From Actinomycetota bacterium (GTDB taxonomy: Bacteria > Actinomycetota > Actinomycetes > Streptosporangiales > Streptosporangiaceae): a stretch of DNA of 64,000 nucleotides. Every line of letters starts with the position of its first letter. Positions within the stretch are counted from its first letter, which is position 1. The stretch spans positions 1 to 64,000 of the forward strand of contig PMSU01000163.1 in the NCBI GenBank assembly GCA_003168255.1, in the 5' to 3' direction. The notes beneath the pieces are model-generated. The model worked only from the letters and a program-made list of their open reading frames with translations. It searched no databases and was not told the origin of the DNA. A program made the translations under genes and the position numbers. Positions 10,561 to 48,871 of the stretch are shown here, piece by piece.

Positions 10561-10589
10561 GCGACTACCGCCCAGGCCTGGTGCGTTGT

Positions 10590-10750
10590 GCCAGCGTGCG
10601 TCGGTGCGTGTCGGCCGGTCCCTCCGCCAGCGTGCGCCGGTACCTGTCCACCCCGGGTGCCTCCGCCAGCGTGCGCCGGTACCTGTCCACCCCGGGTATC
10701 TCCGCTAGCGTGCGCCGGTGCGTGTCGGCCGGTCCCTCAGCCAGCGTGCG
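10590..10750. repeat. Minisatellite of 36-39 bp units between DUF3073 and purM
   Basis: GCCAGCGTGCG-type starts occur at 10590, 10626, 10665, 10704 (as GCTAGCGTGCG) and 10740, giving periods of 36, 39, 39 and 36. The two inner units carry GTACCTGTCCACCCCGGGT, and the outer ones carry GTGCGTGTCGGCCGGTCCCTC. The array ends inside the last codons of purM (which ends at 10737, minus). Confidence 0.85.
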
Positions 10751-13288: not shown

Positions 13289-13336
13289 GCTGGTCAGTCT
13301 AGTGGCGCCGGTCCACCGGCCGGGACCACCCCCGCC

Positions 13337-13720: not shown

Positions 13721-13737
13721 CGGCGCGGTCCCGCTGA

Positions 13738-16694: not shown

Positions 16695-16840
16695 CGCTGG
16701 TTTCCTCCTGCGGCACAGGCACGCTGGAGGGTGCGGCATGGGACCTGAATGCGGACCATGGTCGCAGCCAGCGGGCGGGTCGGCACCTGCACGTCCCGCA
16801 GGCATGCCCGGGACGGGTGGTACGCAGGCAGGCTACCCGG

Positions 16841-17446: not shown

Positions 17447-17553
17447 CCCCCAGCGTCACAGGGAAAGTGACCCATACTGGGAAAGGTTTCCCAAACTCAG
17501 CGCCGAATAACCGCGAACTTTCGATCTTCTTCGCTGCTGGTCACGGGCTGTAG

Positions 17554-17796
17554 TCACACTGTGCGCAGCGAGAAATCCTCAAGGACGGGGTTGGCCAGCA
17601 GCTCGGCCGCCAGCTCGGCGATCCGGGCGAGTGCCGCGTCATCCGCCGGACCGCTGAGCTCTACCTCAAACCGCTTGCCCTGCCGGATCCCGGCTACCTG
17701 GCCGAAGCCGAGACGGCGGCACGCGCCCGCGATCGCCTCGCCTTGCGGGTCATGAATCTCGGGCTTGAGAACCACATCGACGACAACCCTGGCCAC
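17554..17796 (-). CDS. purS: Phosphoribosylformylglycinamidine synthase subunit PurS
   Basis: 80 residues beginning RVVVDVVLKPEIHDPQGEAI. It carries the family's GF-x-x-V-x-x-I-R-QGKRFEVEL motif in the middle and the LLANPVLEDF ending. PurS dimerises and bridges PurL and PurQ. It lies 107 bp before the RsbW-like gene and is divergent from the 2-oxo-acid dehydrogenase operon. Confidence 0.95.
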   Translation of the reverse strand: MARVVVDVVLKPEIHDPQGEAIAGACRRLGFGQVAGIRQGKRFEVELSGPADDAALARIAELAAELLANPVLEDFSLRTV

Positions 17797-17836
17797 ATAC
17801 CCTCCATGCGCCGACTCTCACCGAGGACATATCCTC

Positions 17837-17857
17837 CGTGACACTGACTCTGTCACG
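17837..17857. promoter_or_regulatory. Inverted repeat CGTGACA-N7-TGTCACG in the purS/E1-alpha divergent region
   Basis: Seven-base arms (17837-17843 and 17851-17857) around CTGACTC. It is 40 bp upstream of purS and about 140 bp before the E1 alpha start, so it could act on either. The size and arm spacing fit a homodimeric helix-turn-helix regulator. No regulator gene is adjacent. Confidence 0.5.
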
Positions 17858-17995
17858 ATGACGGTAGTGGACCCGGGCTGGGTGCACTGCGAACAAGGCC
17901 GCGTCCCTGGCGGCGTTACCAGCGGCGCCGGGGGCGAACCAACGGCCGGCCACGGTGATCCCGGCGACCGGCCCCGAGTACGCAAGGAGAGGCAC

Positions 17996-19129
17996 GTGGC
18001 CGTCGACTCCGGCGCTGCAGGCCCGCAAAGGCTGGAAGGAACGGGCGGGGAACTCATCCAGCTTCTCACGCCCGAGGGTGAGCGGGTCGAGCACCCGGAC
18101 TACCCGCTCGACATATCCACCGAAGAGATCAAGGCACTGTTCCGCGACCTCGTGCTCGTCCGCAGGATCGACACCGAGGCGATCGCGCTCCAGCGGCAGG
18201 GTGAGCTCGGCATCTGGGCCTCACTGCTGGGCCAGGAGGCCGCCCAGGTCGGCTCGGGGCGGGCACTCGGCCCGAAGGACATGGCCTTCCCGACCTACCG
18301 CGAGCACGGCGTGGCCTGGTGCCGCGGCCTCGACCCGGCGAAGCTGCTCGAGCTCTTCCGCGGGGTCAGCCACGGCGGCTGGGACCCGAACGAGCACAAC
18401 TTCCACCTGTACACGATCGTGATCGGCAGCCAGACGCTGCACGCCACCGGCTACGCGATGGGGATCCAGCGCGACGGGGCCGTGGGCGAGGACGGCGAGG
18501 CGGTCATCGTGTACTTCGGTGACGGCGCCACCAGCCAGGGCGATGTCAACGAGTCGTTCATCTGGGCGTCGGTCTTCAACGCCCCGGTGGTGTTCTTCTG
18601 CCAGAACAACCAGTGGGCCATCTCCGAGCCGCTCGAGCGGCAGAGCCGGATCCCGCTCTACCAGCGGGCCCGCGGCTTTGGGTTCCCAGGCCTGCGGGTG
18701 GACGGCAACGACGTGCTCGCCTGCCTGGCCGTCACGCGAAAGGCGATGCAGGCCGCGCGGGAAGGCCAGGGACCGACCCTGATCGAGGCGTTCACCTACC
18801 GGATGGGCGCGCACACCACGACCGACGACCCGACCAGGTACCGGCTGGCCGCCGAGCTCGAGTCGTGGAAGCTGAAGGACCCGCTGGAGCGGGTGCGGGC
18901 CTACCTGGTCAGGACCGGGGCCGCGGACGCGGACTTCTTCGCCGCAGTCGATGCGGAGGCGGGCGAGTTGGGCACGCGGGTCAGGAAGTCCTGCCTGACG
19001 ATGCCCGACCCGCAGCCGCTGACCATCTTCGAGAACGTATATTCCGAGCCCAACGCGCAGGTCGCCTACGAACGCGACCGATTCGCCGCGTACCTGGACT
19101 CGTTCGACAGCGAGGAGGTGGGCGCATGA
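17996..19129 (+). CDS. 2-oxo-acid dehydrogenase E1 component, alpha subunit (pyruvate or branched-chain)
   Basis: 377 residues from GTG at 17996, which has AAGGAGAGG six bases upstream. The longer upstream frame crosses the promoter. It decarboxylates a 2-oxo acid with thiamin diphosphate. The ThDP motif is GDGATSQGD-x-NESFIWASVFNAPVVFFCQNNQWAIS, and the phosphorylation-loop region is YRMGAHTTTDDPTRYR. GWDPNEHNFHLYTIVIGSQTLHATGYAMG is characteristic of the actinobacterial PdhA/BkdA group. Whether the substrate is pyruvate or branched-chain oxo acids cannot be decided. The stop overlaps the E1 beta start by 4 bases (ATGA). Confidence 0.92.
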   Translation: MAVDSGAAGPQRLEGTGGELIQLLTPEGERVEHPDYPLDISTEEIKALFRDLVLVRRIDTEAIALQRQGELGIWASLLGQEAAQVGSGRALGPKDMAFPTYREHGVAWCRGLDPAKLLELFRGVSHGGWDPNEHNFHLYTIVIGSQTLHATGYAMGIQRDGAVGEDGEAVIVYFGDGATSQGDVNESFIWASVFNAPVVFFCQNNQWAISEPLERQSRIPLYQRARGFGFPGLRVDGNDVLACLAVTRKAMQAAREGQGPTLIEAFTYRMGAHTTTDDPTRYRLAAELESWKLKDPLERVRAYLVRTGAADADFFAAVDAEAGELGTRVRKSCLTMPDPQPLTIFENVYSEPNAQVAYERDRFAAYLDSFDSEEVGA

Positions 19130-20109
19130 CCACCCTGACCTTGTCCAGGGCGATGAACGAGGGACTGCGCCGCGCGCTGGAGAACGATCCCAAGGTGCTC
19201 GTCATGGGCGAGGACGTGGGCAAACTCGGCGGCGTGTTCCGGGTCACCGACGGGCTGCAGAAGGACTTTGGCGAGGGCCGCGTCATCGATACCCCGCTAG
19301 CCGAATCAGGCATCGTCGGCACGGCGATAGGGCTCGCGCTGCGCGGCTACCGGCCGATATGCGAGATCCAGTTCGACGGCTTCGTGTTCCCCGCCTTCAA
19401 CCAGATCGTCTGCCAGCTGGCCAAGATGCGGCTCCGCTCGCTCGGCCATGTCAGCCTGCCGATCGTCATCAGGATCCCATGCGGCGGCGGCATCGGTGCG
19501 GTAGAGCATCACAGCGAGTCACCCGAGGCGCTGTTCGCGCACATTGGCGGACTGCGGGTAGTCGCCTGCTCCGAGCCCGCCGATGCGTACTCCATGATCC
19601 AGCAGAGCGTCAGCTGCGAAGATCCGGTGATCCTCTTCGAGCCCAAGCGGAGATACTGGGACAAGGGCGAGGTGGACACCGCCGCCGACCCGCAGGCCTG
19701 GCTCTCGCTGAACGCGGCCAGGACCGTGCACCAGGGCAGCGACGTGACCCTACTTGCCTACGGGCCCATGATCAGGACCTGCGTCGAGGCGGCAGTGGCC
19801 GCAGCGAAGGACGGCCGCAGCATCGAGGTCATCGACCTGCGCTCGCTCGCGCCGCTGGACATCGAGACCATCCGCGCATCGGTCCAGCGCACCGGCAGGT
19901 GCGTGGTAGCACACGAGGCACCGGTCACCGGCGGTCTCGGCGCCGAGATCGCCGCGCGGATCACCGAGGAGTGCTTCTACCACCTGGAGGCTCCGGTGCT
20001 GCGGGTAGGCGGGTTCTCCACCCCGTACCCGCCGTCCAAGCTGGAGGACCATTACCTTCCTGACCTGGACCGGGTACTCGATGCCGTCGACCGTACCTTT
20101 GCCTTCTGA
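19126..20109 (+). CDS. 2-oxo-acid dehydrogenase E1 component, beta subunit
   Basis: 327 residues starting MTTLTLSRAMNEGLRRAL. The start at 19126 overlaps the E1 alpha stop, and GAGGAGGTG is the ribosome site. Family features are VMGEDVGKLGGVFRVTDGL, DTPLAESGIVGTAIGLALRG, the EIQFDGFVFPAFNQI region, and RIPCGGGIGAVEHHSESPEA with the conserved His residues. VIDLRSLAPLD and HEAPVTGGLGAEI close the C-terminal transketolase domain. It forms an alpha2-beta2 E1 with the gene before it. Confidence 0.93.
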   Translation: MTTLTLSRAMNEGLRRALENDPKVLVMGEDVGKLGGVFRVTDGLQKDFGEGRVIDTPLAESGIVGTAIGLALRGYRPICEIQFDGFVFPAFNQIVCQLAKMRLRSLGHVSLPIVIRIPCGGGIGAVEHHSESPEALFAHIGGLRVVACSEPADAYSMIQQSVSCEDPVILFEPKRRYWDKGEVDTAADPQAWLSLNAARTVHQGSDVTLLAYGPMIRTCVEAAVAAAKDGRSIEVIDLRSLAPLDIETIRASVQRTGRCVVAHEAPVTGGLGAEIAARITEECFYHLEAPVLRVGGFSTPYPPSKLEDHYLPDLDRVLDAVDRTFAF

Positions 20110-20118
20110 GAGGCGGGC

Positions 20119-21657
20119 ATGACCGAGCTGAAGCAGTTCAAGCTCCCTGACGTCGGCGAGGGCCTCACCGAGGCGGACATCGTCAAGTGGCATGTCCAGC
20201 CGGGTGACAGGGTGACCATCAACCAGATCATCGTGGAGATCGAGACCGCCAAGGCGGTGGTCGAGCTGCCGTGCCCGTTCGAGGGAGTGGTGGCGGAGCT
20301 GCTCGTCGCCGAGGGAACGACCGTGGACGTCGGGATCCCGATCGTCTCGGTCGCCGTCGGCGAGGACGACGGCGAGCCCCCCGCCGGGGCGGCGCCTGCC
20401 GCCGCGGCGCAGACGGCGGCCGTCCCGGGCCGGGAGACGGCCGCTGCTGTGCAGACGCGGACCCACGCCGCCGCGCTGCCAGCAGCCGAGGCCGTGCCCG
20501 GCACACAGGCATCCGCGCCCGAGGGGGAGAAGCGCCAGGCCGTGCTGGTCGGGTACGGGGTGAAGCTCGGCCGCACCACGCGTCGCACGCGCAAGACGTC
20601 CGCGCCTGCGGCTTCCGCGGGGACGGCTTCCGCGGGGACGGCTTCCGCGGGGACGGCTTCCGCGGGGACGGCTTCCGCGGGACCGGCGCCAGCGGCGGGG
20701 GCGGGACGCACACCAGTGGCCGCTGCGGCGGCCGGGGCGGCAGCGGCGCCGCCGGCCAATGGCGCGCAGCGCTCGGCGGGGCCCGCGAGCTCGCGGGCGC
20801 TGGCCAAGCCGCCGGTGCGCAAGCTCGCCAAGGACCTCGGGGTCGATCTGAGCACGCTGACGGGCAGCGGCCCGGAAGGCTCGATCACCAGGGACGACGT
20901 GCAGCAGGCGGTCGGCTCACCGGCGGCCGACGGGCTGGCCGCCGTAACCGCGGTCCCGCGCGAGGAACGCGTACCGGTCCGCGGAGTGCGCAAGCACACC
21001 GCGGCCGCGGTGACCGCAAGCGCTTTCACCGCCCCGCACGTCACCGAGTTCCTGCAGGTAGACGTGACCGCCACGACCGAGGCGCTGGGACGGATCCGTA
21101 ACCTGCCCGAGTTCGCCGACCTGCGCGTCTCGCCGCTGCTGCTGGCCGCGAGGGCGCTGCTCGTCGCGATCGCAAGGCACCCGATGATCAACTCGTCCTG
21201 GGACCAGGAAGCCCAGGAGATCGTGATCCATCACTACGTGAACCTGGGCATCGCGGCGGCCACCGAGCGCGGTCTGGTCGTGCCCAACATCAAGGACGCC
21301 CAGGCGATGTCGCTGCCTGAGCTGGCCGCGGCGCTCGGCCAGCTCGCCCAGACAGCCCGGGCAGGCAAGACTTCCCCGGCCGAGCTGAGGGACGGCACGA
21401 TCACGATCACCAACGTGGGCGTCTTCGGAGTGGACTCCGGTACCCCGATCCTGTCTCCGGGAGAGGCGGCCATCCTGGCGTTCGGCCGGATCAGGGACGC
21501 TCCGTGGGTGCACCAGGGCCAGCTCGCCGTGCGGAAGGTCACCACGCTCGCGCTGTCCTTCGACCACCGCATCGTGGACGGGGATCTCGGCTCCGCGGTG
21601 CTGAGCGAGGTCGGCGCGATGCTGGAGGACCCGCTGCGTATGCTTGCCTGGGCCTGA
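20119..21657 (+). CDS. Dihydrolipoamide acyltransferase (E2) with one lipoyl domain
   Basis: 512 residues. Residues 4-80 are a lipoyl domain with the lipoylated Lys45 in EIETAKAVVEL. A long Ala/Pro-rich linker (about 85-225) follows and includes five TASAG-type repeats. The E3-binding domain is PPVRKLAKDLGVDLSTLTGS (about residues 234-270). The catalytic domain ends with LSFDHRIVDGDLG, whose His and Asp are the acyltransferase residues. It starts at ATG 20119 with AGAGGCGGGC before it. No E3 (lipoamide dehydrogenase) gene is next to the operon, so E3 must come from elsewhere. Confidence 0.94.
   Translation: MTELKQFKLPDVGEGLTEADIVKWHVQPGDRVTINQIIVEIETAKAVVELPCPFEGVVAELLVAEGTTVDVGIPIVSVAVGEDDGEPPAGAAPAAAAQTAAVPGRETAAAVQTRTHAAALPAAEAVPGTQASAPEGEKRQAVLVGYGVKLGRTTRRTRKTSAPAASAGTASAGTASAGTASAGTASAGPAPAAGAGRTPVAAAAAGAAAAPPANGAQRSAGPASSRALAKPPVRKLAKDLGVDLSTLTGSGPEGSITRDDVQQAVGSPAADGLAAVTAVPREERVPVRGVRKHTAAAVTASAFTAPHVTEFLQVDVTATTEALGRIRNLPEFADLRVSPLLLAARALLVAIARHPMINSSWDQEAQEIVIHHYVNLGIAAATERGLVVPNIKDAQAMSLPELAAALGQLAQTARAGKTSPAELRDGTITITNVGVFGVDSGTPILSPGEAAILAFGRIRDAPWVHQGQLAVRKVTTLALSFDHRIVDGDLGSAVLSEVGAMLEDPLRMLAWA
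20611..20685 (+). repeat. 15-bp tandem repeat inside the E2 linker
   Basis: Five in-frame copies of GCTTCCGCGGGGACG (20611, 20626, 20641, 20656, and a last one ending GGGACC) encode the TASAG repeats of the flexible linker. Since the unit is 15 bp, unit number can vary without a frameshift. Confidence 0.95.
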
Positions 21658-21697
21658 CGAGCGCGTCCAGGACGCTACCTAGCGAAGGAGATCCGCA

Positions 21698-21991
21698 ATG
21701 CTCCGCCATGTTGTCTTGCTGGACTGGACGCCGGACGTGACCGAAGAGCAGAAGTACAACTTGACGGAGGCGCTGGACAGGCTGCCTACGCTGATCCCGA
21801 CCATCCGCGACTACCGGTTTGGTCCGGACGCGGGGATCAACAAGGGAACGTTCGACTTCGCCCTGGTGGCCGACTTCGACGACGCGGACGGTTACCGCGC
21901 CTACAGTGACCACCCAGTGCACCGCGACATCGTCGAGCGCTTCATCGACCCGATCGCGGCGCAGCGGGCGTCCGTCCAGTACGAGTTCTGA
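21698..21991 (+). CDS. Dabb-family (stress-responsive A/B barrel) protein
   Basis: 97 residues with the ferredoxin-like Dabb pattern: MLRHVVLLDWTPDVTEEQK at the start, LPTLIPTIRDYRFGPDAGI in the middle, DFALVADFDDADGYRAYSDHPVH and a final QYEF. The start has AAGGAGATCCGC upstream. Such proteins form small alpha+beta barrels. Some are cyclases or isomerases, most are unassigned. It lies 40 bp behind E2 and may be co-transcribed with it. Confidence 0.85.
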   Translation: MLRHVVLLDWTPDVTEEQKYNLTEALDRLPTLIPTIRDYRFGPDAGINKGTFDFALVADFDDADGYRAYSDHPVHRDIVERFIDPIAAQRASVQYEF

Positions 21992-22000
21992 CCTGCCTGG

Positions 22001-23821
22001 TCAGAACGCCGTCTCTGGGATCTCCATCACGTCAAGCCCGGTCTCCTCGGTGATCTGGCGCTCCGCGGCGAGCCTGGGCAGCACGGTGGCAGCGAAGAAC
22101 CGCGCGGCGGCGATCTTCCCGAGATAAAAGTCCTCGTCGGTGACGCCCTGGTCGAGCGCTGTCAGCGCGACCTCGGCCTGGCGGCCGAGCAGCCAGCCGA
22201 TCAGCAGGTCGCCGAGGGCCAGCAGCAGCCGGTTGGTGTTGAGTCCGACCCGGTAGATCTCGGTCGGCCGGTCCATCGCATCGGTGAGGAAGCCGGTCAT
22301 CGCGGTGAGCATGCCCTCGACGTCGGACACCGCGCGGGCCACCGCGGCGCGCTCCGCCTTGAGCCGCCCGTTGCCCGCGTCGGCCGTGGTGAACTCGGTG
22401 ATCTCGCCGAGCAACTGCCGCAACGCCGTGCCGTTGTCCCGGACGATCTTGCGGAAGTACAGGTCCAGGCCCTGGATCGCGGTGGTGCCCTCGTAAAGGC
22501 TGTCGATCTTCGCGTCCCTGATGTACTGCTCGATCGGGTAGTCCTGCAGGAACCCCGACCCGCCGAGTGTCTGCAGGGACAGGGTGAGCATCTCGTACGA
22601 GCGCTCCGAACCGACCCCCTTGACTATGGGCAGCAGCAGGTCGTTCAGCCGGGCCGTCACCTCGTCGGCGGTGCCGTTCGCCGCGGCGATCTGCGCTGCG
22701 TCCTGCATGGTCGCCGTGTACAGGACGAGCGCCCGCATGCCTTCCGCGTACGCCTTTTGCAGCATGAGCATGCGGCGGACATCGGGGTGATGAATGATCG
22801 TGACCCGCGGCGCGGTCTTGTCCATCATCTGGGCGAGATCGGCGCCTTGTACCCGGGTCTTGGCAAAGTCCAGCGCGTTCAGGTAACCGGTGGACAGGGT
22901 GGCGATGGCCTTCGTGCCCACCATCATCCGGGCGTGCTCAATGATCATGAACATCTGCTTGATGCCCTGGTGCACGCCGCCGACCAAGGTGCCCACCGCC
23001 GGGTGCTTCGCACCGAAGCTGAGCTCGCAGGTGGTCGATGCCTTCAGCCCCATCTTGTGCTCGACGCCGGTCGCATAGACGCCGTTCCGCTCGCCGAGCG
23101 TGCCGTCGCCGGCGACCAGGTACTTGGGCACCAGGAACATGGACAGCCCCTTAGTGCCAGGCCCGTGTCCATCGGGCCTGGCCAGCACCAGGTGGAAGAT
23201 GTTCTCGGCCATGTCGTGCTCGGCGCTGGTGATGAACCGCTTGACGCCCTCGATGTGCCAGGTCCCGTCCGGCTGCTCGATCGCCTTGGCCAGGCCCGCC
23301 CCGACGTCCGAGCCCGCATCGGGCTCGGTCAGCACCATGGTGGCGCCCCATACGCGCTCGATGGCGAGCTCGGCGAAACGCTTCTGCTCGGGCGTGCCGA
23401 TCTGCCAGAGCACGTGCGCGAACGAGGGCCCGCCCGAGTACATCCAGACGGCGGGGTTAGCGCCGAGGATCATCTCGCCCACGGCCCAGGCCAGCGAGCG
23501 CGGCGCGCCGGTGCCGCCCAGCTCCGGCGGCAGGTCCAGCCGGTACCACTCGGCGTCCATGAAGGCGCGGAACGACTTCTTGAACGACTCGGGCATCCGC
23601 ACCGAGCCCGTCTCGCGGTCGAAGACCGGCGGATTGCGGTCCCCCTCGGCGAAGGACTCCGCCAGCGGCCCCGACGCCAGCCTGTTCACCTCGGCGAGGA
23701 TGCCCCTGACGGTCTCCTCGTCCAGGTCGGGATAGGGCTCGCTGCCCAGCACATCCTGTCGGTTCAGCACCTCGAAGAGGTTGAACTCGATGTCACGAAG
23801 ATTGCTCTTGTAGTGGCCCAT
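22001..23821 (-). CDS. Acyl-CoA dehydrogenase, FadE5-like
   Basis: 606 residues from ATG at 23821 ([19 protein letters not shown]), with GGAG upstream. Another in-frame ATG lies 12 bases earlier. It resembles mycobacterial FadE5 as I remember it, both in length (about 610) and in the N-terminal block [17 protein letters not shown]-dependent alpha,beta-dehydrogenation of acyl-CoA is expected. Motifs are [28 protein letters not shown] and [20 protein letters not shown], where the E-x-Y-x-R-D-x-K-I block is a family landmark. A C-terminal alpha-helical extension follows. It is divergent from the fused acyl-CoA dehydrogenase at 23994. Confidence 0.92.
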
Positions 23822-23946
23822 CGGAGGCTCCATTGCTCAGCCTGGCACGACCTACCCGCCAGTAACACCATTATGCTACCCACTGGTAACCAGAGCAACT
23901 GTCGTTGTGAGCAGGATCACCCGAGGCTCTATCCTTTCGCTAAACC

Positions 23947-23957
23947 GAACCTCGTTC
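23947..23957. promoter_or_regulatory. GAAC-N3-GTTC inverted repeat in a divergent fadE promoter
   Basis: GAACCTCGTTC lies 37 bp before the fused dehydrogenase start. A second small palindrome-like stretch, CCACTGGTAACCAGAG, lies at about 23879-23894 towards the other gene. Together they suggest TetR-type control of the divergent pair. KstR-type sites have AAC-N2-GTT, so this one differs by a base in spacing. Confidence 0.4.
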
Positions 23958-23993
23958 TAGAGTGTGCAGGGCAGTCAACTGACGAGGTGGGTT

Positions 23994-26300
23994 ATGGCAC
24001 TGGCGGTCACCGAGGAACATCAGGCACTGGCCGAATCGGTGCGAGGCTGGGCCGAGCGGAACGCGGGACCCCCCGCACTGCGGGCCGCGGCCGACGCGCC
24101 CGACGGCGGCGCCGCCAACTACGCCGATTCAGTGCACAGCGCCCTGGCGGCGCAGGGCCTGCTCGGCTTGCACCTGCCCGAGGACCAGGGCGGCCAGGGC
24201 TTCGGCCTGGCCGAGCTCGCGGTCGCGGTGGCCGAGCTCGGCCGTGGGATGCTGCCGGGCTGCTTCCTGCCGACCGTCCTTGCCAGCGCGGCGCTGGCCG
24301 CGTCGGGCACCGGCGGCAAGCTGGTGACCAGTCTCGCGGACGGCACCCGCTGCGGCGCGGTCTGTCTCGCCGCCGGGATCACGGCGACACCGGGCGAGGA
24401 TGGCGGGCTGGTGCTGGACGGCAGCTGCGCGCCCGTACTCGGCGGTTCCGTCGCCGACCTGGTGATCCTGCCCGTCTCCGGCACGGGTGGCGAGACCTGG
24501 GTCGCGGTAGACGCGGCGGAGCTCGACATCACGCAACTGGACAGCCTTGACCTCACCCGGCCCGTCGCGCAGCTGCGCGCGGACAGCCTGGCCGTCCCGG
24601 CCGAGCGGGTGCTGACCGGCCTGCGCCGGACCGTGGTCGCTGACCTTGCCGCCGTGCTGTTCGGCGCCGAGGCAGCCGGGATTGCCGGATGGGCGGTGAG
24701 CACGGCCGCCGAGTACGCCAGGATCCGCCATCAGTTTGGCAGGCCCATTGGCCAGTTCCAGGCGGTCAAGCACCGGTGCGCCCGGATGCTCACCCAGGCC
24801 GAGCAGGCGGACGCGGTCGTCTGGGATGCGGCCCGGGCACTCGATCGCGCCGCTGGCGACGCGGCGCCAGCGGGCTCGGCTGCCGCGGCGCCGTCAGCGC
24901 CTGGGGGCGCGGCGGACAGCGAGGCGCAGGCGGACTTCGCCGCGAGCGTGGCAGCCGTCATCGCAGTTGACGCCGCCGTGGAGTGCGCGCATGAGTGCAT
25001 CCAGGTGCTTGGCGGCATCGGCTACACCTGGGAGCACGAAGCGCACCTGTACTACCGGCGGGCGCTTTCGCTGCGCGCCCTGCTCGGTCCGTCCGGCCGG
25101 TGGGCCCGGCAGGTCGCCGGGCTGGCTACCTCCGGCACCCGCCGGAAGCTCGAGATCGACCTGCCGGACGAGGCCGAACGCTGGCGCACCGAGATCAGGG
25201 CCGAGCTGGCCGAGATCGCCGGGCTGTCGTGGGTCGACCAGATCGAGCGGTTCGCGGCGGGCGGCTGGGTCTCACCGCACCTGCCGCGCCCCTGGGGGCG
25301 CGCCGCCACTCCCCTGGAACAGGTCATCATCGCTCAGGAGCTTCGCGCGGCACGGCTGCGACCGCCCGTGCTGTTCATCGGCTCGTGGGCCATGTCGGCA
25401 CTCGTCGGGTACGGCACACCGGAGCAGCAGGAGCGGTTCCTGCCGCGGACGCTGCGCAACCAGGTCGTCTGGTGCCAGCTGTTCAGCGAGCCCGGAGCGG
25501 GTTCCGACCTGGCCGGCATCACCACCCGGGCGGAGCGGGCGGACGGCGGCTGGCGGCTGACCGGGCAGAAGATCTGGACCTCCCTGGCCAAGCAGGCGGC
25601 GTGGGCGATCTGCATCGCCAGGACCGACCCGAGCGAGCCGCGGCACGACGGCATCAGCTACTTCCTCGTGGACATGTCCTCGCCTGGTATCGAGGTGCGG
25701 CCGCTGCGCGAGATGACCGGGGACGCGCTGTTCAACCAGGTCTTCCTCGACGACGTATTCGTGCCAGATGACTGCGTCGTGGGCGAGATCAACGGCGGCT
25801 GGAAGGTGGCCCGCAGCACGCTGGCCAACGAGCGGGTGTCGCTGTCACAGTCCTGGACGTCGGGATTCGGCGTGGCCGAACTGCTTGACGTGGTCGCCAA
25901 GCAGGATCCCGCAATGGCGCAGGACGCTGAGCTGATCGGCCGGCTGGTGGGCGCCGGGCATGCGATCGACGTGCTCGGGCTGCGGGTAACGCTGAGGCAG
26001 CTGTCCGGAACCGAGCCTGGCGCGACCGGCAGCGTGCGCAAGCTGCTTGGCATGCGGCACGCACAGCAGGTCACCGAATGCTGCTGGTCGCTGGCCGGCG
26101 CGGACGGTGCGCTCGGACCCGGCCGGGAGGGCGGCTGGCGGCCCGGAGACGGCGAGCAGGACCAGGCCAGGCACTGGAGCAAGCAGGTATTGATGACCCG
26201 GGCGCTGACAATCGGCGGCGGCACCACCGATATCCAGCTCAACATCATCGCCGAGCGCATCCTGGGCTTGCCGCGCGACCCAGAGCCGCCTGCGGCATAA
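23994..26300 (+). CDS. Fused double-domain acyl-CoA dehydrogenase (FadE34-like)
   Basis: 768 residues from ATG at 23994 (GAGGTGGGTT before it). The first acyl-CoA dehydrogenase half (about residues 1-385) has GLHLPEDQGGQGFGLAELAVA, YARIRHQFGRPIGQFQAVKH and CIQVLGGIGYTWEHEAHLY. An Ala/Pro linker lies inside it near residue 300. The second half (about 390-768) has LPRPWGRAATPLEQ, LFSEPGAGSDLAGI, KIWTSLA and GGGTTDIQLNIIAERILGLPRD. Fused or heteromeric dehydrogenases of this type act on steroid side-chain or bulky acyl-CoAs in mycobacteria. Only some halves keep the catalytic base, and here I cannot assign it. The substrate is unknown. Confidence 0.9.
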   Translation: MALAVTEEHQALAESVRGWAERNAGPPALRAAADAPDGGAANYADSVHSALAAQGLLGLHLPEDQGGQGFGLAELAVAVAELGRGMLPGCFLPTVLASAALAASGTGGKLVTSLADGTRCGAVCLAAGITATPGEDGGLVLDGSCAPVLGGSVADLVILPVSGTGGETWVAVDAAELDITQLDSLDLTRPVAQLRADSLAVPAERVLTGLRRTVVADLAAVLFGAEAAGIAGWAVSTAAEYARIRHQFGRPIGQFQAVKHRCARMLTQAEQADAVVWDAARALDRAAGDAAPAGSAAAAPSAPGGAADSEAQADFAASVAAVIAVDAAVECAHECIQVLGGIGYTWEHEAHLYYRRALSLRALLGPSGRWARQVAGLATSGTRRKLEIDLPDEAERWRTEIRAELAEIAGLSWVDQIERFAAGGWVSPHLPRPWGRAATPLEQVIIAQELRAARLRPPVLFIGSWAMSALVGYGTPEQQERFLPRTLRNQVVWCQLFSEPGAGSDLAGITTRAERADGGWRLTGQKIWTSLAKQAAWAICIARTDPSEPRHDGISYFLVDMSSPGIEVRPLREMTGDALFNQVFLDDVFVPDDCVVGEINGGWKVARSTLANERVSLSQSWTSGFGVAELLDVVAKQDPAMAQDAELIGRLVGAGHAIDVLGLRVTLRQLSGTEPGATGSVRKLLGMRHAQQVTECCWSLAGADGALGPGREGGWRPGDGEQDQARHWSKQVLMTRALTIGGGTTDIQLNIIAERILGLPRDPEPPAA

Positions 26301-43003: not shown

Positions 43004-43039
43004 AAGGCCCAGGCCGGGAACGCTCCCTACCTGGGCCTT
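43004..43039. terminator. Hairpin next to the leftmost att copy
   Basis: AAGGCCCAGG (43004-43013) pairs with CCTGGGCCTT (43030-43039), followed by CTCGATG. It ends transcription from the membrane-protein gene and lies 9 bp outside the tRNA-derived boundary at 43049. Confidence 0.7.
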
Positions 43040-43048
43040 CTCGATGAG

Positions 43049-43089
43049 AGCGGGTGACGAGAATCGAACTCGCACTATCAGCTTGGGAA
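43049..43089 (-). repeat. Attachment-site copy 1: 3' 41 bp of tRNA-Gly(CCC)
   Basis: Exact duplicate of 48801-48841, that is, of the tRNA from the anticodon loop to the discriminator base. The sequence on its 3' side diverges from the tRNA. This is the outermost (tRNA-distal) copy and marks the left edge of the island. Confidence 0.92.
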
Positions 43090-43174
43090 CTCGTCCCGCT
43101 CCGCCTGATAGTACCCCTGACCAGCCAGACCCGCCGCCCCTAGGTGACCGTGGTTGACCGCCAGACACCCCGGC

Positions 43175-43196
43175 TAATTGCACGCTAATTGCACGA
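43175..43196. repeat. Pair of 11-bp direct repeats (arm-type integrase sites, set 1)
   Basis: TAATTGCACGC then TAATTGCACGA. The pair begins 126 bp from the start of att copy 1. An identical pair stands at the same distance from copy 2. The flank shares GGTTGACC, GGC and GACGATC with the second set. Confidence 0.75.
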
Positions 43197-43372
43197 CGAT
43201 CATGTCCCGGACCTTGCTGCCTGCACCCGCCAGCGTCCGCCCCGACATGCCGCCGTACCGACTGAACCCCTCACGTCCTACCCGGAGTCGCCGATCGCGA
43301 GACGGAGCGGCCTGAGGCAGGTGTGTACGTGAGCGGGTCACACTGTCGATCGCGCGGGGCGGCGTTGCGAAA

Positions 43373-43440
43373 CTTGGATACCATCGCTGTAATTCCAAGT
43401 TCTGATCCCCTGGCTTGGATTTGTCTCGTAGGATTCCAAG
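43373..43440. promoter_or_regulatory. Two identical-geometry inverted repeats upstream of fic
   Basis: CTTGGAT(A/T)-N11-ATTCCAAG occurs at 43373-43399 and 43414-43440. Half-sites are 21 bp apart in each, and the two sites are 41 bp apart. The second site ends 2 bases before the Fic start, so binding there would block translation start or transcription start. Since the Fic protein has a C-terminal winged-helix segment, autoregulation is possible. Confidence 0.7.
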
Positions 43441-43442
43441 TC

Positions 43443-44636
43443 ATGATGACTTCGTTGGCCGGCTCTCCGATCGGCCAGGTGACAACCATCACCGGCTACG
43501 ATCCCCGGTTCCGCGAGTCATACGAGGTGAAGGCTTTCCTGCCAGATGATCTTCCGGACAAGGTTACCCTCCCGAGTTCAACATGGCTCGTACTCAGCGA
43601 GGCCATGGCTGAGCTAGGACGTTTGGACGCAGCAGCCAGCCTGATACTCAATCCGACACTCGTAACCCGGATGGCCACGAGACGTGAGGCGATCGGCACC
43701 TCTGCCCTCGAAGGCACCTTCGCCGCCCTGGCCGAACTGCTGGCGTCTGAAGTACTCCCAGTCTCGGAGGATGGCACGTCGCTGCCTCCCAATGTACGAG
43801 AAGTTAGGAACTACGCCCGAGCTGCCGACCTCGCCTACACCTGGATCGTAGATCGTCACATCACGCTGGGGATGCTAGCTGCGCTGCAGGCTGAGATCGT
43901 TAAGGACACCGACGGTGACGGCCCAGATGCAGGTGCGCTGCGTGAACGGCAAGTGTTCATAGGTGCGAAGGACCGACGACTGGCGGATGCTCGCTTCGTT
44001 CCGCCTCCCCCCGGAGATCACCTCCGGTCAAGTTGTGAGCGTTGGCTTGCTTGGCTCACTGCGCCAGCGCCGAAGGCCAACATCCAGTTGATAGCTCGCA
44101 TAGCCATGGCTCACTATCAACTGGAATCACTCCATCCCTTCAGCGACGGCAACGGTCGAATCGGCCGCCTAGTCTCAATCCTGCAAATGATGCGCGAAGG
44201 GGCCCTCCGCTCACCTGTGCTATCGGTGTCTTCGTGGCTCAAGGACCACGCCGACGCATACCGAGACCATTTGCTTGCTGTCAGCCAAAGCGGCGAGTGG
44301 GCTCCGTGGATAGAATTCTTTGCCACTGCCGTTCGTGAGGAGGCCCGCAGCGGTCATGATCGCATCATGAACCTCCTGGATTTGCGGACAGAGCTTACAC
44401 ATCGAGTGCGCTCCGCTTTCCCTCGAGCCCGAATCGCGCTAGAAATCGCGGAAGATCTCATTGCCTACCCAATACTAACCGTGGCGGATGCTCACTACCG
44501 CTACGGACGCTCGAATCAGGCGAATCGCAACGCTATTGCCGCGTTGGTTGATATCGGCATTCTCGAACCTTACGGTGCAGCTACCTACGATCGCCTTTAC
44601 TGGAATCAGCAAGTCTTCCAGATCGTGGATCACTAG
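43443..44636 (+). CDS. Fic family protein (AMP-transferase type, class II) - island module A
   Basis: 397 residues from ATG at 43443 (another at 43446). The Fic motif HPFSDGNGRIGR is intact (about residues 232-243), so it should move AMP or another nucleotide part onto a target hydroxyl. The inhibitory helix motif (S/T)-x3-E-(G/N) is present as TSALEGTF near residue 81, so the protein can inhibit itself. The C-terminal part (ILTVADAHYRYGRSNQANRN to LVDIGILEPYG) looks like a winged helix. No antitoxin gene is needed for a class II Fic. GC is slightly lower than that of neighbours and codon use less biased, which fits transfer. Confidence 0.9.
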   Translation: MMTSLAGSPIGQVTTITGYDPRFRESYEVKAFLPDDLPDKVTLPSSTWLVLSEAMAELGRLDAAASLILNPTLVTRMATRREAIGTSALEGTFAALAELLASEVLPVSEDGTSLPPNVREVRNYARAADLAYTWIVDRHITLGMLAALQAEIVKDTDGDGPDAGALRERQVFIGAKDRRLADARFVPPPPGDHLRSSCERWLAWLTAPAPKANIQLIARIAMAHYQLESLHPFSDGNGRIGRLVSILQMMREGALRSPVLSVSSWLKDHADAYRDHLLAVSQSGEWAPWIEFFATAVREEARSGHDRIMNLLDLRTELTHRVRSAFPRARIALEIAEDLIAYPILTVADAHYRYGRSNQANRNAIAALVDIGILEPYGAATYDRLYWNQQVFQIVDH

Positions 44637-44753
44637 ATCACCGGTTCAGCAAGATGCACTTCCTCAGCCGGCGAAGCGGGCCAGTTCGGCAGTCACGGCG
44701 GCCACGTCGCAGCCGGCGAACTTGGCACGGGTCACACCACACCGCAACTCCAC

Positions 44754-44980
44754 ATGATCTTCTACCGGGTCGTGGAGGCGGCCGGGTCAAAATCACGTTC
44801 CACCCTGCTCGGCATTCCACGCTGAGCTACCTGCTCAACTCGGGACAGGTGCCCATCGCGATCGTGGCCGCATGGCAGGTCACGCTGACGGCGGCGCGAC
44901 CGCGCTCAAGCACTACATCCGCACCCGTCCGGGCGACCTGGAGGCCGCGGGACGCCATAGCCGAACTGCTCGGCGCGTAG
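44754..44980 (+). pseudogene. C-terminal remnant of a tyrosine integrase
   Basis: Joined frames give FHPARH (the H-x2-R of the catalytic set), STLSYLLNSGQVPIAIVAAW, then a shifted frame ALKHYIRTRPGDLEAAG (the catalytic Tyr) and AIAELLGA before a stop at 44980. The N-terminal 80% is absent and at least one frameshift is present. The stop is 97 bp before att copy 2, which is where an integrase normally ends relative to its attachment site. Confidence 0.7.
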
Positions 44981-45077
44981 AACAGTTGTGAGAAATTGTG
45001 AGATTCCAGCCCTCAAGGGAGGACCATGAGAGGCTCAAGCTGACTCGGAAAGCGACTTTGAACTGGTGTTTCTTCGG

Positions 45078-45118
45078 AGCGGGTGACGAGAATCGAACTC
45101 GCACTATCAGCTTGGGAA
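45078..45118 (-). repeat. Attachment-site copy 2: 3' 41 bp of tRNA-Gly(CCC)
   Basis: Exact duplicate of 48801-48841. It closes module A (Fic plus integrase remnant) and opens module B (ECF sigma). Confidence 0.92.
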
Positions 45119-45203
45119 ACGGTGCGATACCGGCCGGTTGCGGGCCTGGCCTGGGCAAAGCAATGCCCCTGAGTGCCCGTGGTTGACCACTGCTGACCCT
45201 GGC

Positions 45204-45225
45204 TAATTGCACGTTAATTGCACGA
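45204..45225. repeat. Pair of 11-bp direct repeats (arm-type integrase sites, set 2)
   Basis: TAATTGCACGT then TAATTGCACGA, 126 bp from the start of att copy 2, the same distance as in set 1. Nearly all of the about 30 bp around it is shared with set 1, whereas the DNA between core and arm differs. Confidence 0.75.
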
Positions 45226-45441
45226 CGATCTTGCGCTGACGTGCACCGATCGGGCCCCACCGTCGCATGCTCCTCCCTGTCCTCCTCATAGTTATCGTGC
45301 ATCGGGGAGGGGGGTGCGGCCTGCTTGGAGACTGTGAAGGAGGTCTCGCGACCGAACTTGCACGCGGGTTGTGCTCAACCTCGGCCGGGCCGACGGGATT
45401 CATATAGGTAGAGCACCAGGACCGGTCGGCGGGAGGCGCAA

Positions 45442-45996
45442 ATGCAGCTAGTGAGGGACGCGGCGTCTGATCGCCAGTTCGAGGGCTTCGTTGCCGAGGC
45501 GTCGGACGCCCTGTTCCGCACTGGCTACCTGATGACAGGAGATGCCCGGGATGCCGAGGACCTGGTCCAGGAGACCTTTCTGCGGGTAGCCCGGCGGTGG
45601 AACCGGGTGCGGGCGATGGATCATCCGGCAGCGTACGCCCGCCGGATCCTGATCAACCTGGTGCTGCGCGATGGTGACCGCCGGTCACGCGAGAAGGCAG
45701 AACTGGTCCCGGAGGGCGCGTGGATCGATGCTGCGGACCAGGACGCGGCGCATGTGCTGCGGGCAATCGACGACGTCGCGGAGTTCCGCTGGGCGCTGGC
45801 GCAGCTGCCTGCTCGCCAGCGGGCCGTGCTGGTGCTGCGGTACTGGGCCGACCTGCCCGTCGCCGAAGTCGCCGACATCCTGGGCTGCTCCGCCGGGACA
45901 GTCAAGAGCACCGCATCGCGGGCTGCCGCCCGGCTAGCCGAAACCCTCACCCGCGCTGAGGCGGCATCCCAGCCTGCCGCTCCGGGCCAAGAATGA
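45442..45996 (+). CDS. SigE-type ECF sigma factor - island module B
   Basis: 184 residues from ATG at 45442 with GGCGGGAGGCGC before it. Region 2: FEGFVAEASDALFRTGYLM, DARDAEDLVQETFLRVARRW. Region 4: LAQLPARQRAVLVLRYWADL and VAEVADILGCSAGTVKSTAS. This is the layout of small actinobacterial ECF factors with a linked membrane regulator. The gene after it, 13 bp away, is a single-pass membrane protein that could be its anti-sigma factor. Its place in a tRNA-bounded module makes it part of the mobile cargo. Confidence 0.9.
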   Translation: MQLVRDAASDRQFEGFVAEASDALFRTGYLMTGDARDAEDLVQETFLRVARRWNRVRAMDHPAAYARRILINLVLRDGDRRSREKAELVPEGAWIDAADQDAAHVLRAIDDVAEFRWALAQLPARQRAVLVLRYWADLPVAEVADILGCSAGTVKSTASRAAARLAETLTRAEAASQPAAPGQE

Positions 45997-46009
45997 AAGG
46001 ACGGACCTG

Positions 46010-46642
46010 ATGATCACCGACGAACTCGAAAATGAACTCCGCAAGACCTTCGCCAGAGCCGGAGCTGAAAGCGCGATTCCCGACCAGGCCCGCGAGCGGC
46101 TGCTCCAGCACGACTACCTGCCAGGGCGGAGAAACCGGCGACTCATCGTGAGCATCACCGCCGCCGCGGCCGCCGCTGCCCTGGTCCTGGGTCTTAACCT
46201 GTCCGGCGTGTTCGGCTCTGTGCCAGCGCACCACATGGGCACGATCCGGACCGCGGCATTCACGCTCGTCAGCAACGCCGATGGCACCGCTACCCTGACC
46301 CTCAAGCCGCAGGAGCTATTCGAGCCCGGCACCCTGCAAAGCGACCTGGCGAAAGCTGGCATCCCGGCCAGGGTCACGGTAGGCAGCTTCTGCTCCTCCG
46401 ATCCGACGCCCGCCGGTTTCTCGCAGGCCGTGTCCATCCCGATCCAGCCTGGCCAGGGCATGACCGTGACGATCAATCCCGCAGCGATACCAGCTGGGAC
46501 CGAGCTGAGCTTCGGCACCTTCCAGCTCGCGAGCAACCTGGAGACGACGGCTGCGCTTATCGACACCGGCTCCTACACCTGCACCAGCACCGCACCCACC
46601 ACTCTCCCGACCGGCGGTGCGCTGTTGCACTGGCGGAAATGA
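46010..46642 (+). CDS. Single-pass membrane protein, probable partner of the ECF sigma factor
   Basis: 210 residues from ATG at 46010 (GAAAGGACGG upstream). N-terminal cytoplasmic part of about 45 residues (ELENELRKTFARAGAESAIP), one membrane helix (SITAAAAAAALVLGLNLSGVF), and an extracytoplasmic domain of about 130 residues with two Cys. The position 13 bp behind a sigma factor and the topology fit an anti-sigma factor. The cytoplasmic part lacks the H-x3-C-x2-C zinc motif, so it is not a ZAS protein. Sensing role is inference. Confidence 0.7.
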   Translation: MITDELENELRKTFARAGAESAIPDQARERLLQHDYLPGRRNRRLIVSITAAAAAAALVLGLNLSGVFGSVPAHHMGTIRTAAFTLVSNADGTATLTLKPQELFEPGTLQSDLAKAGIPARVTVGSFCSSDPTPAGFSQAVSIPIQPGQGMTVTINPAAIPAGTELSFGTFQLASNLETTAALIDTGSYTCTSTAPTTLPTGGALLHWRK

Positions 46643-46669
46643 CGTACTGCTACTAGTAAGCGATCCTGT

Positions 46670-46711
46670 CCTGGCCCGGGCCTGGCACTGACAATGCCGA
46701 CCCGGGCCAGG
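46670..46711. terminator. Hairpin terminator of the sigma/membrane operon
   Basis: CCTGGCCCGGG (46670-46680) and CCCGGGCCAGG (46701-46711), perfect 11-bp arms and 20-base loop, followed by GTCTGCTG. It closes module B just before att copy 3. Confidence 0.75.
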
Positions 46712-46808
46712 GTCTGCTGCAGCCCGGCGCGGGTGGCAAGCCGAATGGGGAGGTCGGATCAACAATGCGCCCGACTGGGACGGCGCGGACGCGCCCGGCA
46801 TGGCTGGG

Positions 46809-46849
46809 AGCGGGTGACGAGAATCGAACTCGCACTGTCAGCTTGGGAA
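46809..46849 (-). repeat. Attachment-site copy 3: 3' 41 bp of tRNA-Gly(CCC) with one change
   Basis: Identical to 48801-48841 except one base (CACTGTCAG for CACTATCAG). It separates module B from module C (HipBA). Confidence 0.9.
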
Positions 46850-46950
46850 GTCACTGCCAGTCCAGGCCGATCACCTGCGGCAGCGCTGAACTGGGCCGGA
46901 GCAAGAGCTTCCCCGTGAGTCACCGTGGATCCCCGTGATCACTCGTCCTG

Positions 46951-46972
46951 ACGGGCACGTAACGGGCACGCT
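46951..46972. repeat. Pair of 11-bp direct repeats (arm-type sites, set 3, different sequence)
   Basis: ACGGGCACGTA then ACGGGCACGCT. The period (11 bp) and position (142 bp from the att start) resemble sets 1 and 2, but the sequence differs, suggesting an integrase with another arm specificity. Confidence 0.6.
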
Positions 46973-47029
46973 CCCTCGCCTGCTATCGAGGGCAACCCGT
47001 CGAACCGAGCCTCATCTGGGCTACGGGAG

Positions 47030-47099
47030 TGTGGGGATTTTCGCACAGGACGCGATGTGGAGATATTCTCACATCAAACGATGTGGGGATTTCCTCACG
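47030..47099. promoter_or_regulatory. Three HipB-type operators at a 26-bp period
   Basis: 18-bp sites begin at 47030, 47056 and 47082: TGTGGGGATTTTCGCACA, TGTGGAGATATTCTCACA and TGTGGGGATTTCCTCACG. The middle one is nearly a perfect palindrome, and all fit TGTG-N10-CACA. Starts are exactly 26 bp apart. The last ends 18 bases before the HipB start. HipB-like proteins bind several palindromes upstream of their operon and repress it. Confidence 0.85.
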
Positions 47100-47117
47100 T
47101 AGACCGGAGTGGTGGCC

Positions 47118-47381
47118 ATGGCCCGCAAGACGATCGAGGTGCGCAAGCCACGCGACATCGGCGACGCGATCCGCGTCGTGCGCGAGGCACGCGGCATCTC
47201 ACAGGAGGAACTAGCACTGGCGAACGCCTACGACAGGTTCTACCTCAACAGACTGGAGGCAGGCCGGAGCACGGTGTACATCACCCGCCTCCTGCGCACG
47301 CTGAAGTCGCTCGGCATCACCCTCAGCGTCACGTTCGACACCGGTGAGTCCGTCGCTGGCAAAGGCCCCTCTGATGCCTGA
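47118..47381 (+). CDS. HipB-like antitoxin - island module C
   Basis: 87 residues from ATG at 47118 (GGAGTGGTGGCC before it). A GTG 9 bases earlier is possible. It has an XRE-type helix-turn-helix: IGDAIRVVREARGISQEELA, AYDRFYLNRLEAGRSTVYIT and RLLRTLKSLGITLSV. It should bind the three operators and the HipA toxin. It overlaps hipA by 8 bases. Confidence 0.85.
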   Translation: MARKTIEVRKPRDIGDAIRVVREARGISQEELALANAYDRFYLNRLEAGRSTVYITRLLRTLKSLGITLSVTFDTGESVAGKGPSDA

Positions 47382-48672
47382 CAGGCTAGAGGTGCGTCTC
47401 CACGACGAGCAGGTCGGCTGGATTACCAGAGGCTCCCGGCGGGAGCGCATCGAGTTCGAGTGGGTTGAGGACTACCCCCCCGGACCCGTCACTCTGACGG
47501 AGTCGTTCGGGTCTGTTCGGTCGAAGGCGCCGTCGGCTGAAGCGAGTAGTTTCTTCGGGGGATACGCGCTTGAGGGCCGTCAACGCGAGCGGCTTACTGT
47601 GCGTCGCGGCATCAGCAACCCGACGGATCTGTACGCGATGCTCCGCGAGTTCGGAAGTTCGATCGCCGGCGCCGTGACGATAAGCGACCCAGACGTTGCG
47701 AGCCGGACGCAGCCGCGCTACGAGCCGATCAGTGACGGCGAGATCATTCAGCGCCTCCGCCGGGCCGCGAATGACGGCGACCTCGGCTCCGATGATCAGA
47801 GTCGCTCAATGCTCGCTGGCTACCAGCCGAAGCTGCTGCTCGCCCGGTTCGACGGTAAATGGCACCTTCCCCGCGGCCGCGCGCACTCCACCCACATCCT
47901 CAAGCCGAGACTTCCGGGACGCCGCGACGCGCTCGCCAGGGAGCACTACGGCCACGCACTAGCCGCAGAACTCGGGCTCGCGCGCTACCGAACGGAACTC
48001 GTCGGCAACGGGGCCAACCAGTACCTGGTCATCGAGCGCTACGACCGGGCTGTCAACGGCGAGACCGTTTCGCTGATCCACCAGGAAGACGCTGCACAGG
48101 CACTCGGTCTCGACTGGGTCGATGACCACGCGAAGTTTCAGGACCCTGGTGCGCCGCGTGACTCCCATCGCCCGAGCGCATACCGGATCGCCGAGCTCCT
48201 CGGCTCGCTTCAGGGAGAGGGCAAGCCGGTCGCTGACTTCCTGCGCAGGCTCACATTCACCGTGCTCTTGGGCGATAACGACGCCCACGCGAAAAACTTG
48301 GCCATCTTGCACCTTCCCGGCCGCAGCGTGCTCGCTGACGTATACGACGCGGTCCCGAATCTCTTCCAGGACGGCCGGATCGACTACAACCTCGCGCTCG
48401 CCATCGACGGGAGCTTCGACCACCGGCGCATCAGCGCTGCGCATCTCATCCACGAAGCCGAGCGGTGGAACGCGCTCGGCACCGGCGAAGCAGAGCAGAT
48501 CGTCACCGCGACTGTGGCCGACTTCGCGAAGGCGCTCGACCGTGTAACAGTCCCGCCAGGCGTCCCCGCACTGGCCAGGACACAACTCGCATGGAACGTC
48601 GAGCGATTGCAGGCGGGCTTGGAGATCAACGAGCGACCGAGCGGGTACCGTCGTCGACGCAGTCGTCCTTGA
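47374..48672 (+). CDS. HipA-like serine/threonine kinase toxin - island module C
   Basis: 432 residues from ATG at 47374, which lies inside the last codons of hipB. N-terminal subdomain: RLEVRLHDEQVGWI, then ASSFFGGYALEGRQRERL. The ATP-binding/autophosphorylated loop is SMLAGYQPKLLLAR. The catalytic loop is LLGDNDAHAKNLAIL and the metal-binding segment DVYDAVPN. E. coli HipA phosphorylates GltX and brings dormancy. The target here is unknown. The gene ends 128 bp before the tRNA. Confidence 0.88.
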   Translation: MPDRLEVRLHDEQVGWITRGSRRERIEFEWVEDYPPGPVTLTESFGSVRSKAPSAEASSFFGGYALEGRQRERLTVRRGISNPTDLYAMLREFGSSIAGAVTISDPDVASRTQPRYEPISDGEIIQRLRRAANDGDLGSDDQSRSMLAGYQPKLLLARFDGKWHLPRGRAHSTHILKPRLPGRRDALAREHYGHALAAELGLARYRTELVGNGANQYLVIERYDRAVNGETVSLIHQEDAAQALGLDWVDDHAKFQDPGAPRDSHRPSAYRIAELLGSLQGEGKPVADFLRRLTFTVLLGDNDAHAKNLAILHLPGRSVLADVYDAVPNLFQDGRIDYNLALAIDGSFDHRRISAAHLIHEAERWNALGTGEAEQIVTATVADFAKALDRVTVPPGVPALARTQLAWNVERLQAGLEINERPSGYRRRRSRP

Positions 48673-48800
48673 TCCCAAGTGCACCGGCCAGCCCGGTGAT
48701 CGTCACGGCGTGCCTGACTAGGACGCGGCCTCGCCACCCCTTGATGATCAAGGAATCAAGACTCGCGATAGGGGCCTGACCAGGCAACTCAGGTACTCGG

Positions 48801-48841
48801 AGCGGGTGACGAGAATCGAACTCGCACTATCAGCTTGGGAA
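48801..48841 (-). other. Original attachment site within tRNA-Gly(CCC)
   Basis: The part of the tRNA from anticodon loop to 3' end that is duplicated three times in the island. Integration restores a whole tRNA at this end, so the gene keeps working. Confidence 0.85.
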
Positions 48842-48871
48842 GCTGATGTTCTGCCATTGAACTACACCCGC
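48801..48871 (-). tRNA. tRNA-Gly, anticodon CCC
   Basis: 71 bases on the minus strand, without encoded CCA. Acceptor stem GCGGGTG with CACCCGC, discriminator T. The anticodon loop is TTCCCAA (anticodon CCC) between TCAGC and GCTGA. The T-arm has GTTCGATTC. It reads GGG codons. Its 3' 41 bases recur at 43049, 45078 and 46809, so it is the target of the integrations and the only complete copy. Confidence 0.97.

Follow-up and report, generated by a model that had tools for sequence, protein, structure and literature searches.

Tandem tRNA-bounded modules at tRNA-Gly(CCC) in a member of the Streptosporangiaceae: probable stacked remnants of integrated elements of the actinomycete integrative and conjugative type

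What kind of process leaves three short modules in a row behind one tRNA gene, each bounded by copies of the same tRNA 3' end and none with a working integrase? The question is raised by a 64,000-nucleotide stretch of an Actinomycetota genome of the family Streptosporangiaceae (assembly GCA_003168255.1, contig PMSU01000163.1, positions 1 to 64,000; hereafter the window), in which the sole tRNA found by ARAGORN is tRNA-Gly(CCC) at 48799-48871 on the reverse strand. This intact gene, the integration target, adjoins dcd, and the flank from dcd onward is syntenic in relatives. Its 3' end provides a 42-bp core that is present four times, listed here on the forward strand: core 1, a partial tRNA copy forming the left edge of module A (43048-43089), and core 2, at the junction of modules A and B (45077-45118), are identical to the tRNA 3' end at 42 of 42 positions; core 3, at the junction of B and C (46808-46849), carries one change, A>G at core position 30, which is the allele seen in other genera; and core 4 (48800-48841) lies within the intact tRNA and matches its 3' end. 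An earlier note on this DNA had described four copies, one with a single change, and modules of 2029, 1731 and 1992 bp; the copies are real, but 42 bp long rather than 41, and the spacing of the cores confirms the module lengths. These are the only four places in the 7.15-Mb assembly within 3 mismatches of the core, while every non-core place in the window lies more than 15 mismatches away (20 shuffled windows gave no match with fewer than 17). We consider it probable that the array consists of stacked, deletion-derived remnants of elements of the actinomycete integrative and conjugative element (AICE) type, similar to cis-mobilisable elements (CIMEs).

The cores are accompanied by a second conserved feature. 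Nearly all partial cores, whether in the window or in relatives (each species represented by a single genome, often a draft or metagenome assembly; the source genome is itself a 214-contig draft), are followed on the right by a conserved head of ~150 bp, laid out as a CTGACCTG block, a GTGAGTGACCGTGGTTGACC block and then two copies of a 9-11-bp repeat with an 11-bp period. Near-perfect direct repeats were found in 39 of 84 heads and in 0 of 84 shuffled ones. At this period, modules A and B carry TAATTGCACG twice and module C carries ACGGGCACG twice; further repeat types among relatives are TAATGGCACG, TAATGGCCCG and TCTGGCACG. The forward-strand head of module A spans 43130-43195, with its arm repeats, CTAATTGCACG CTAATTGCACG, at 43174-43195, and that of module B spans 45159-45224, with CTAATTGCACG TTAATTGCACG at 45203-45224. 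In module C the arm repeats, ACGGGCACG (TA) ACGGGCACG, occupy 46951-46970 (forward) and represent a second arm type, which is also found in the modules at tRNA-Gly(TCC) in the same genome. The 11-bp arm repeats proposed earlier stand for A and B, and C has a second repeat type. The right ends are less regular: no arms were found at those of modules B and C, which are bare, and that of A carries TTGTGAGA (AA) TTGTGAGA (44986-45003, forward), a type unlike the one in its head, with similar repeats beside tRNA-Gly(CCC) in locus L118. The combination of a tRNA 3'-end core with a conserved head resembling a phage-type attachment site (attP) and bearing integrase-type arm repeats bears out the view that the modules are site-specific integrants.

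A likely source for such heads is found in relatives, where full-length tyrosine integrases lie at tRNA-Gly(CCC) with their ends 55-102 bp from the tRNA. Eighteen of the 20 full-length integrases beside this gene have a clear repeat pair at the integrase 3' end or shortly beyond it, no more than 150 bp from the core. The similarity of these repeats tracks that of the integrases (Mantel r 0.60, p 2e-4), a correlation that may in part reflect host phylogeny. Arms of the module A/B type occur together with an intact integrase in L064 and L091, and because L064 combines its integrase with RepSA of the pSAM2 type and FtsK/TraB-like genes, the element is AICE-like. Additionally, a Micromonospora rosaria plasmid record of 11 kb carries an integrase homologue next to genes for an excisionase and a replication initiator. 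The genome under study has an intact AICE of its own, 13.4 kb long, at tRNA-Arg(TCT) (L240, G000:C113, 3312-16774), in which 44-bp repeats accompany the integrase, RepSA and FtsK genes; its arm repeats belong to the CTGGCACG type, unlike those of modules A-C. This AICE also carries genes for a GntR/UTRA regulator and a dynamin/IIGP-like GTPase. The genome yielded neither an integrase of matching arm type nor, this AICE apart, a full-length integrase that closely resembles the tRNA-Gly(CCC) family; at an assembly completeness of 93%, a helper integrase may have been missed. A phage origin of the heads was considered and dropped: exact scans of IMG/VR for two arm-repeat pairs gave no match, and the L064 integrase gave just partial phage matches of <60% identity.

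How intact elements could become small modules is suggested by the modules themselves. Among 55 modules shorter than 5.5 kb, a full integrase was found in none, a C-terminal tail in 17 and no integrase piece in 36, as counted with one profile that does not register the frameshifted piece of another family in module A; nearly all of the 17 tails adjoin the next core. The proposal that these units keep attachment (att) ends while having no working recombinase holds for most short modules. In the 19 small modules in which both ends could be typed, arm types differ in 13 and match in six, approximate counts since the classes were assigned by hand. Cargo is mixed, comprising PIN toxins, a Gp49/helix-turn-helix toxin-antitoxin pair, HipBA and Fic, along with photolyase, carbonic anhydrase, a short-chain dehydrogenase/reductase (SDR) and others; toxin-antitoxin and defence genes are frequent but not exclusive.

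We propose that tRNA-Gly(CCC) serves as the attachment site for a family of tyrosine-integrase elements, the intact examples of which, where examined, are AICEs. These elements would enter the intact tRNA in turn, and every entry would leave one more copy of its 3' end, as the anatomy of the array shows. Later deletions, some fusing the left end of a stacked element with the right end of the element beside it and others ending at a core, would then strip the integrase and transfer genes, while the core, the armed head and stable cargo (Fic, HipBA, VapBC or a sigma factor) would stay. The deletion step is suggested by the integrase tails, the missing tail arms and the mismatched arm types. Modules with matched arms could be excised by an integrase acting in trans, whereas each window module has a single intact end and is probably fixed, unless a larger composite takes it along. 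With no matched arms in the window modules and no matching helper integrase found, they are best read as remnants or composites.

Comparison with related soil bacteria shows how variable the locus is. The tRNA-dcd junction in Streptosporangiaceae and Streptomyces contains from none to several modules with differing cargo, and in one sister genus the tandem copy number ranges from none to at least two. Conservation of one module order in all relatives, named beforehand as the outcome that would count against successive integration, was not observed: order, number and cargo vary, and some of the examined flanks have no tandem copy. While the right flank, dcd and beyond, is syntenic, the upstream side is variable. 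A left chromosomal anchor at 8514-26300 (no strand assigned) is syntenic in genomes G050 and G049 and partly in G046, with a variable island between it and the tRNA, and the distance from anchor to tRNA is ~22.5 kb here, ~10 kb in G049 and ~15.5 kb in G050. The cargo of A, B and C was not found at tRNA-Gly(CCC) in the examined loci of relatives, where heads and tails alone match. Many cores and tRNAs have a hairpin and a second repeat pair on their left side; in the window, an inverted repeat to the left of core 1 (43004-43039, reverse strand) forms a GC-rich hairpin like those left of most cores and tRNAs in relatives. This conserved hairpin just downstream of the tRNA 3' end is probably the tRNA terminator, carried along by incoming elements.

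Several observations weigh against reading the array as old debris. Measured against the tRNA of their own host, 52 partial copies from 35 loci that retain the intact gene average less than 1 mismatch in 42, although no constraint on their sequence is expected, and in 12 of 51 draft contigs, where 2.2 would be expected, a core falls 200 bp or less from a contig end. Such an excess of contig ends is expected if neighbouring cells differ at these places or if repeats disturb assembly; together with the near-perfect cores, it hints at movement more recent than the word remnants implies. Matched ends are kept in a HipBA unit of G034, in L126, L120 and L152, and in one module of L171, which fits continuing mobilisation in trans. 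The putative function of the arms, including binding by integrases, is deduced from their position, their period and the way they vary with the integrases, and any present mobility of the window modules is hypothetical.

These points bear most directly on a different reading, in which the modules are active, non-autonomous cassettes: portable units with an attP head, putatively circular when excised, that AICE integrases move in trans, so that the array would be a working platform. This reading is favoured by the near-identity of cores to the host tRNA while the cassettes diverge by 16-20%, by the excess of contig ends at cores, by the matched-arm modules just listed, and by the G034 HipBA unit and its 1.6-kb neighbour, both with equal arms at the two ends and no integrase. 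A core-bounded 0.9-kb VapBC unit found in four genera, in one of them (L072) behind a different head type, points the same way. However, the similar divergence of VapBC and dcd suggests that VapBC may be inherited and not mobile; modules with mismatched ends are more numerous than those with matched ends; and the window modules have neither two matching arms nor a helper integrase of their type in the genome. We therefore regard active cassettes as possible but unlikely for this array. Of the mobile cassette array that the earlier note envisaged, the matched ends survive in some modules elsewhere, but no window module has matching ends and no helper was found. A wider form of the idea, that single-function units are captured, re-headed and shuttled between tRNA-Gly genes by visiting AICE integrases as a trans-acting system, seems to us slightly more doubtful still.

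The remaining explanations fare considerably worse. The closeness of the partial copies to the host tRNA and the hairpins left of many cores might suggest that the copies have a function of their own, as terminators, small RNAs or a source of integration immunity, and are kept by selection; but they stand between unrelated genes, their number and position vary freely among relatives, and site-specific recombination alone explains their presence, which makes selection for such a function very unlikely. Taken alone, partial tRNA copies would also permit duplication of the tRNA end by homologous or illegitimate recombination. Such duplication, however, does not predict armed heads at a near-constant distance from the core and tied to integrase type, and the same site is used by intact integrase-bearing elements; we hold this origin to be highly improbable. 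Least credible of all is an assembly artefact, which the draft state of the source genome might invite, given that the array lies inside a 78.8-kb contig and that similar arrays occur in many independent genomes, including the long contigs of L135, L171 and L111. Stacked, deletion-derived remnants of AICE-type elements thus remain our favoured account of the array.

The contents of the three modules, all on the forward strand, agree with profile matches for the cargo previously named: Fic in A, an extracytoplasmic function (ECF) sigma factor with a membrane partner in B and HipBA in C, with the membrane protein graded as probable. Module A encodes a SoFic-like Fic protein (43443-44636; Pfam Fic_N/Fic 5e-16, PADLOC SoFic 3e-79), followed by a frameshifted C-terminal piece of a tyrosine integrase (44786-44985), recognised by amino acid similarity to the L118 piece and to an integrase on G000:C97. 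The identity is 82% over 45 aa to the piece beside tRNA-Gly(CCC) in the genome of L118 and 46% to the full-length integrase elsewhere in the genome under study (G000:C97), and the piece has no Pfam match. An assignment to the AICE-type integrases was rejected, as the score was no better than that of shuffled sequence; judged by its similarities, the piece is from another integrase family. The integrase tail described earlier for this module is therefore real, but frameshifted and of a different family. Module B encodes a SigE-family ECF sigma factor (45442-45996; TIGR02983 7e-45) and a protein with one apparent hydrophobic helix, a probable sigma partner with only a weak NCBIfam match (46010-46642), relatives of which occur in 42 of 342 family genomes. 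Immediately to the left of the tRNA-Gly(TCC) array is a pair akin to these two (32% and 47% aa; L237, G000:C108:28778-29290). The idea of the module B cargo as a shared cassette was dropped, since the family is common in the genome, its other copies have no adjoining match to the head model and chance is possible. In module C, a HipB-like antitoxin (47109-47381; TIGR03070 8e-9) precedes a HipA toxin kinase (47377-48672; HipA_C 2e-33, solved HipA structures 4e-19), and three 17-bp repeats, 26 bp apart, upstream of hipB (47030-47098) are likely operators, with similar sequence in the G034 copy. In modules A-C, no integrase was found except the frameshifted piece in A, and no transfer gene or RepSA.

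Comparable units occur at other tRNA genes. A second array in the same genome, on the reverse strand of L237 (G000:C108:17000-36999, 9248-13459), lies at tRNA-Gly(TCC) with modules of 1598, 1761 and 852 bp; in the 852-bp module a PIN-domain-like gene abuts the core, an arrangement shared with the VapBC units that other genera carry at tRNA-Gly(CCC). The L237 core at 12607 has the tRNA allele of G034 and not that of its own tRNA. HipBA of the module C type was found in 6 of 342 family genomes, and the copy in G034, which belongs to another genus, is 77.7% identical to module C over 1647 bp. It forms a 2016-bp, integrase-less unit at tRNA-Gly(TCC) with GTGTGGCACG-type repeats at both ends, and the neighbouring 1.6-kb unit has the same arm repeats at both of its ends. 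Since HipBA stands at tRNA-Gly(CCC) here and at tRNA-Gly(TCC) in G034, one cargo occurs behind different heads and tRNA genes; for HipBA, this shows a swap of cargo both between heads and between tRNA-Gly genes. A further HipBA-bearing contig (L254, G339:C260) has identical stretches at 1-206 and 4483-4671, ~4.5 kb apart.

Additional units were observed elsewhere. The VapBC unit at tRNA-Gly(CCC) is 80-84% identical among its four genera (L058 7910-8808, L072 6112-6998, L160 8896-9852 and L172 9593-10553, reverse strand); its toxin gene stops a few bases short of the next core, there are no right-end arms, and the L172 unit is oriented opposite to the tRNA. Since VapBC has diverged about as far as dcd, it was not accepted as proving a recent transfer, although the left flanks are unlike. 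In L238 (G000:C145, 3483-5344) a 1.8-kb unit with a TAATTGCACG head has 40-bp flanking repeats at the 3' end of a ychF-like gene; its own core retains no more of the tRNA-Gly core than the final ~20 bp, which suggests integration at a secondary site. In L239 of the genome under study (G000:C124, 5234-8094) a 2.8-kb unit lies between a partial copy of tRNA-Arg(CCG) and the intact gene, with head-like sequence behind a short core-like stretch in its interior.

Stacking and recombinase-less cassettes at tRNA genes are already described. CIMEs retain their att sites but have shed the genes for integration and transfer, and they are usually met in tandem accretions, as in the ICESt1 family (PMC5704250). 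Modules A-C likewise lack these genes, keep cores at both ends and are stacked at one tRNA; the arm analysis in the window, however, is unfavourable to att function. Small modules are also far smaller than CIMEs (0.6-3 kb, often one gene or toxin-antitoxin pair), many have lost one arm or carry two arm types, and the record is family-wide with several arm types. In Streptomyces, AICEs and defective AICEs (DAICEs) accrete at one tRNA (PMC9513070), and the parent class (integrase, RepSA and TraB/FtsK), the kind of target and the repeat-flanked elements at a single tRNA are the same here. DAICEs nevertheless retain traB, while traB, rep and a working integrase are all absent from the window modules; the full set of an intact AICE is present in L240 and absent from A-C. 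Dehalococcoides ssrA islands are also tandem, with a 20-bp ssrA repeat, and 15 of them without an integration module were proposed to be CIMEs (PMC3146451), but they differ from the window modules in their serine recombinases, transfer-messenger RNA target and larger size.

Other cassette systems share part of this anatomy. The available parts of reports on additive flexible genomic islands in Candidatus Actinomarinales (PMC7771536) and Candidatus Methylopumilus (PMC10872708) describe tRNA-bounded cassettes, small, added at tRNA genes and marked by tRNA-end repeats. The present locus likewise has variable cassettes at one tRNA, end repeats and a number that differs between relatives; those parts describe no integrase arm sites or parent elements, whereas heads, arm types and intact parents are identified here. 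Integron cassettes look similar as single-gene units stacked at one site, but here tRNA 3' ends delimit the units, and the integrases of the site are AICE-type (attC sites were not searched with a model). A tycheposon would bring its own tyrosine recombinase at a tRNA, while these modules of 1.7-2.0 kb contain no intact recombinase.

What the present study adds is heads with integrase-specific repeats, very small units, hybrid ends and cargo common to several tRNA genes. Because arm repeats indicate the kind of integrase that imported a unit, its origin, its helper and its fixation may be readable from sequence, and mobilisation in trans becomes testable. If the trans-acting system were true, the tRNA genes of Streptosporangiaceae would be integron-like platforms without a resident integrase. 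Such modules would also shed light on how individual genes for toxin-antitoxin systems and defence (Fic/SoFic, HipBA, VapBC) can spread among actinobacterial chromosomes, and stay there, with no autonomous element to carry them.

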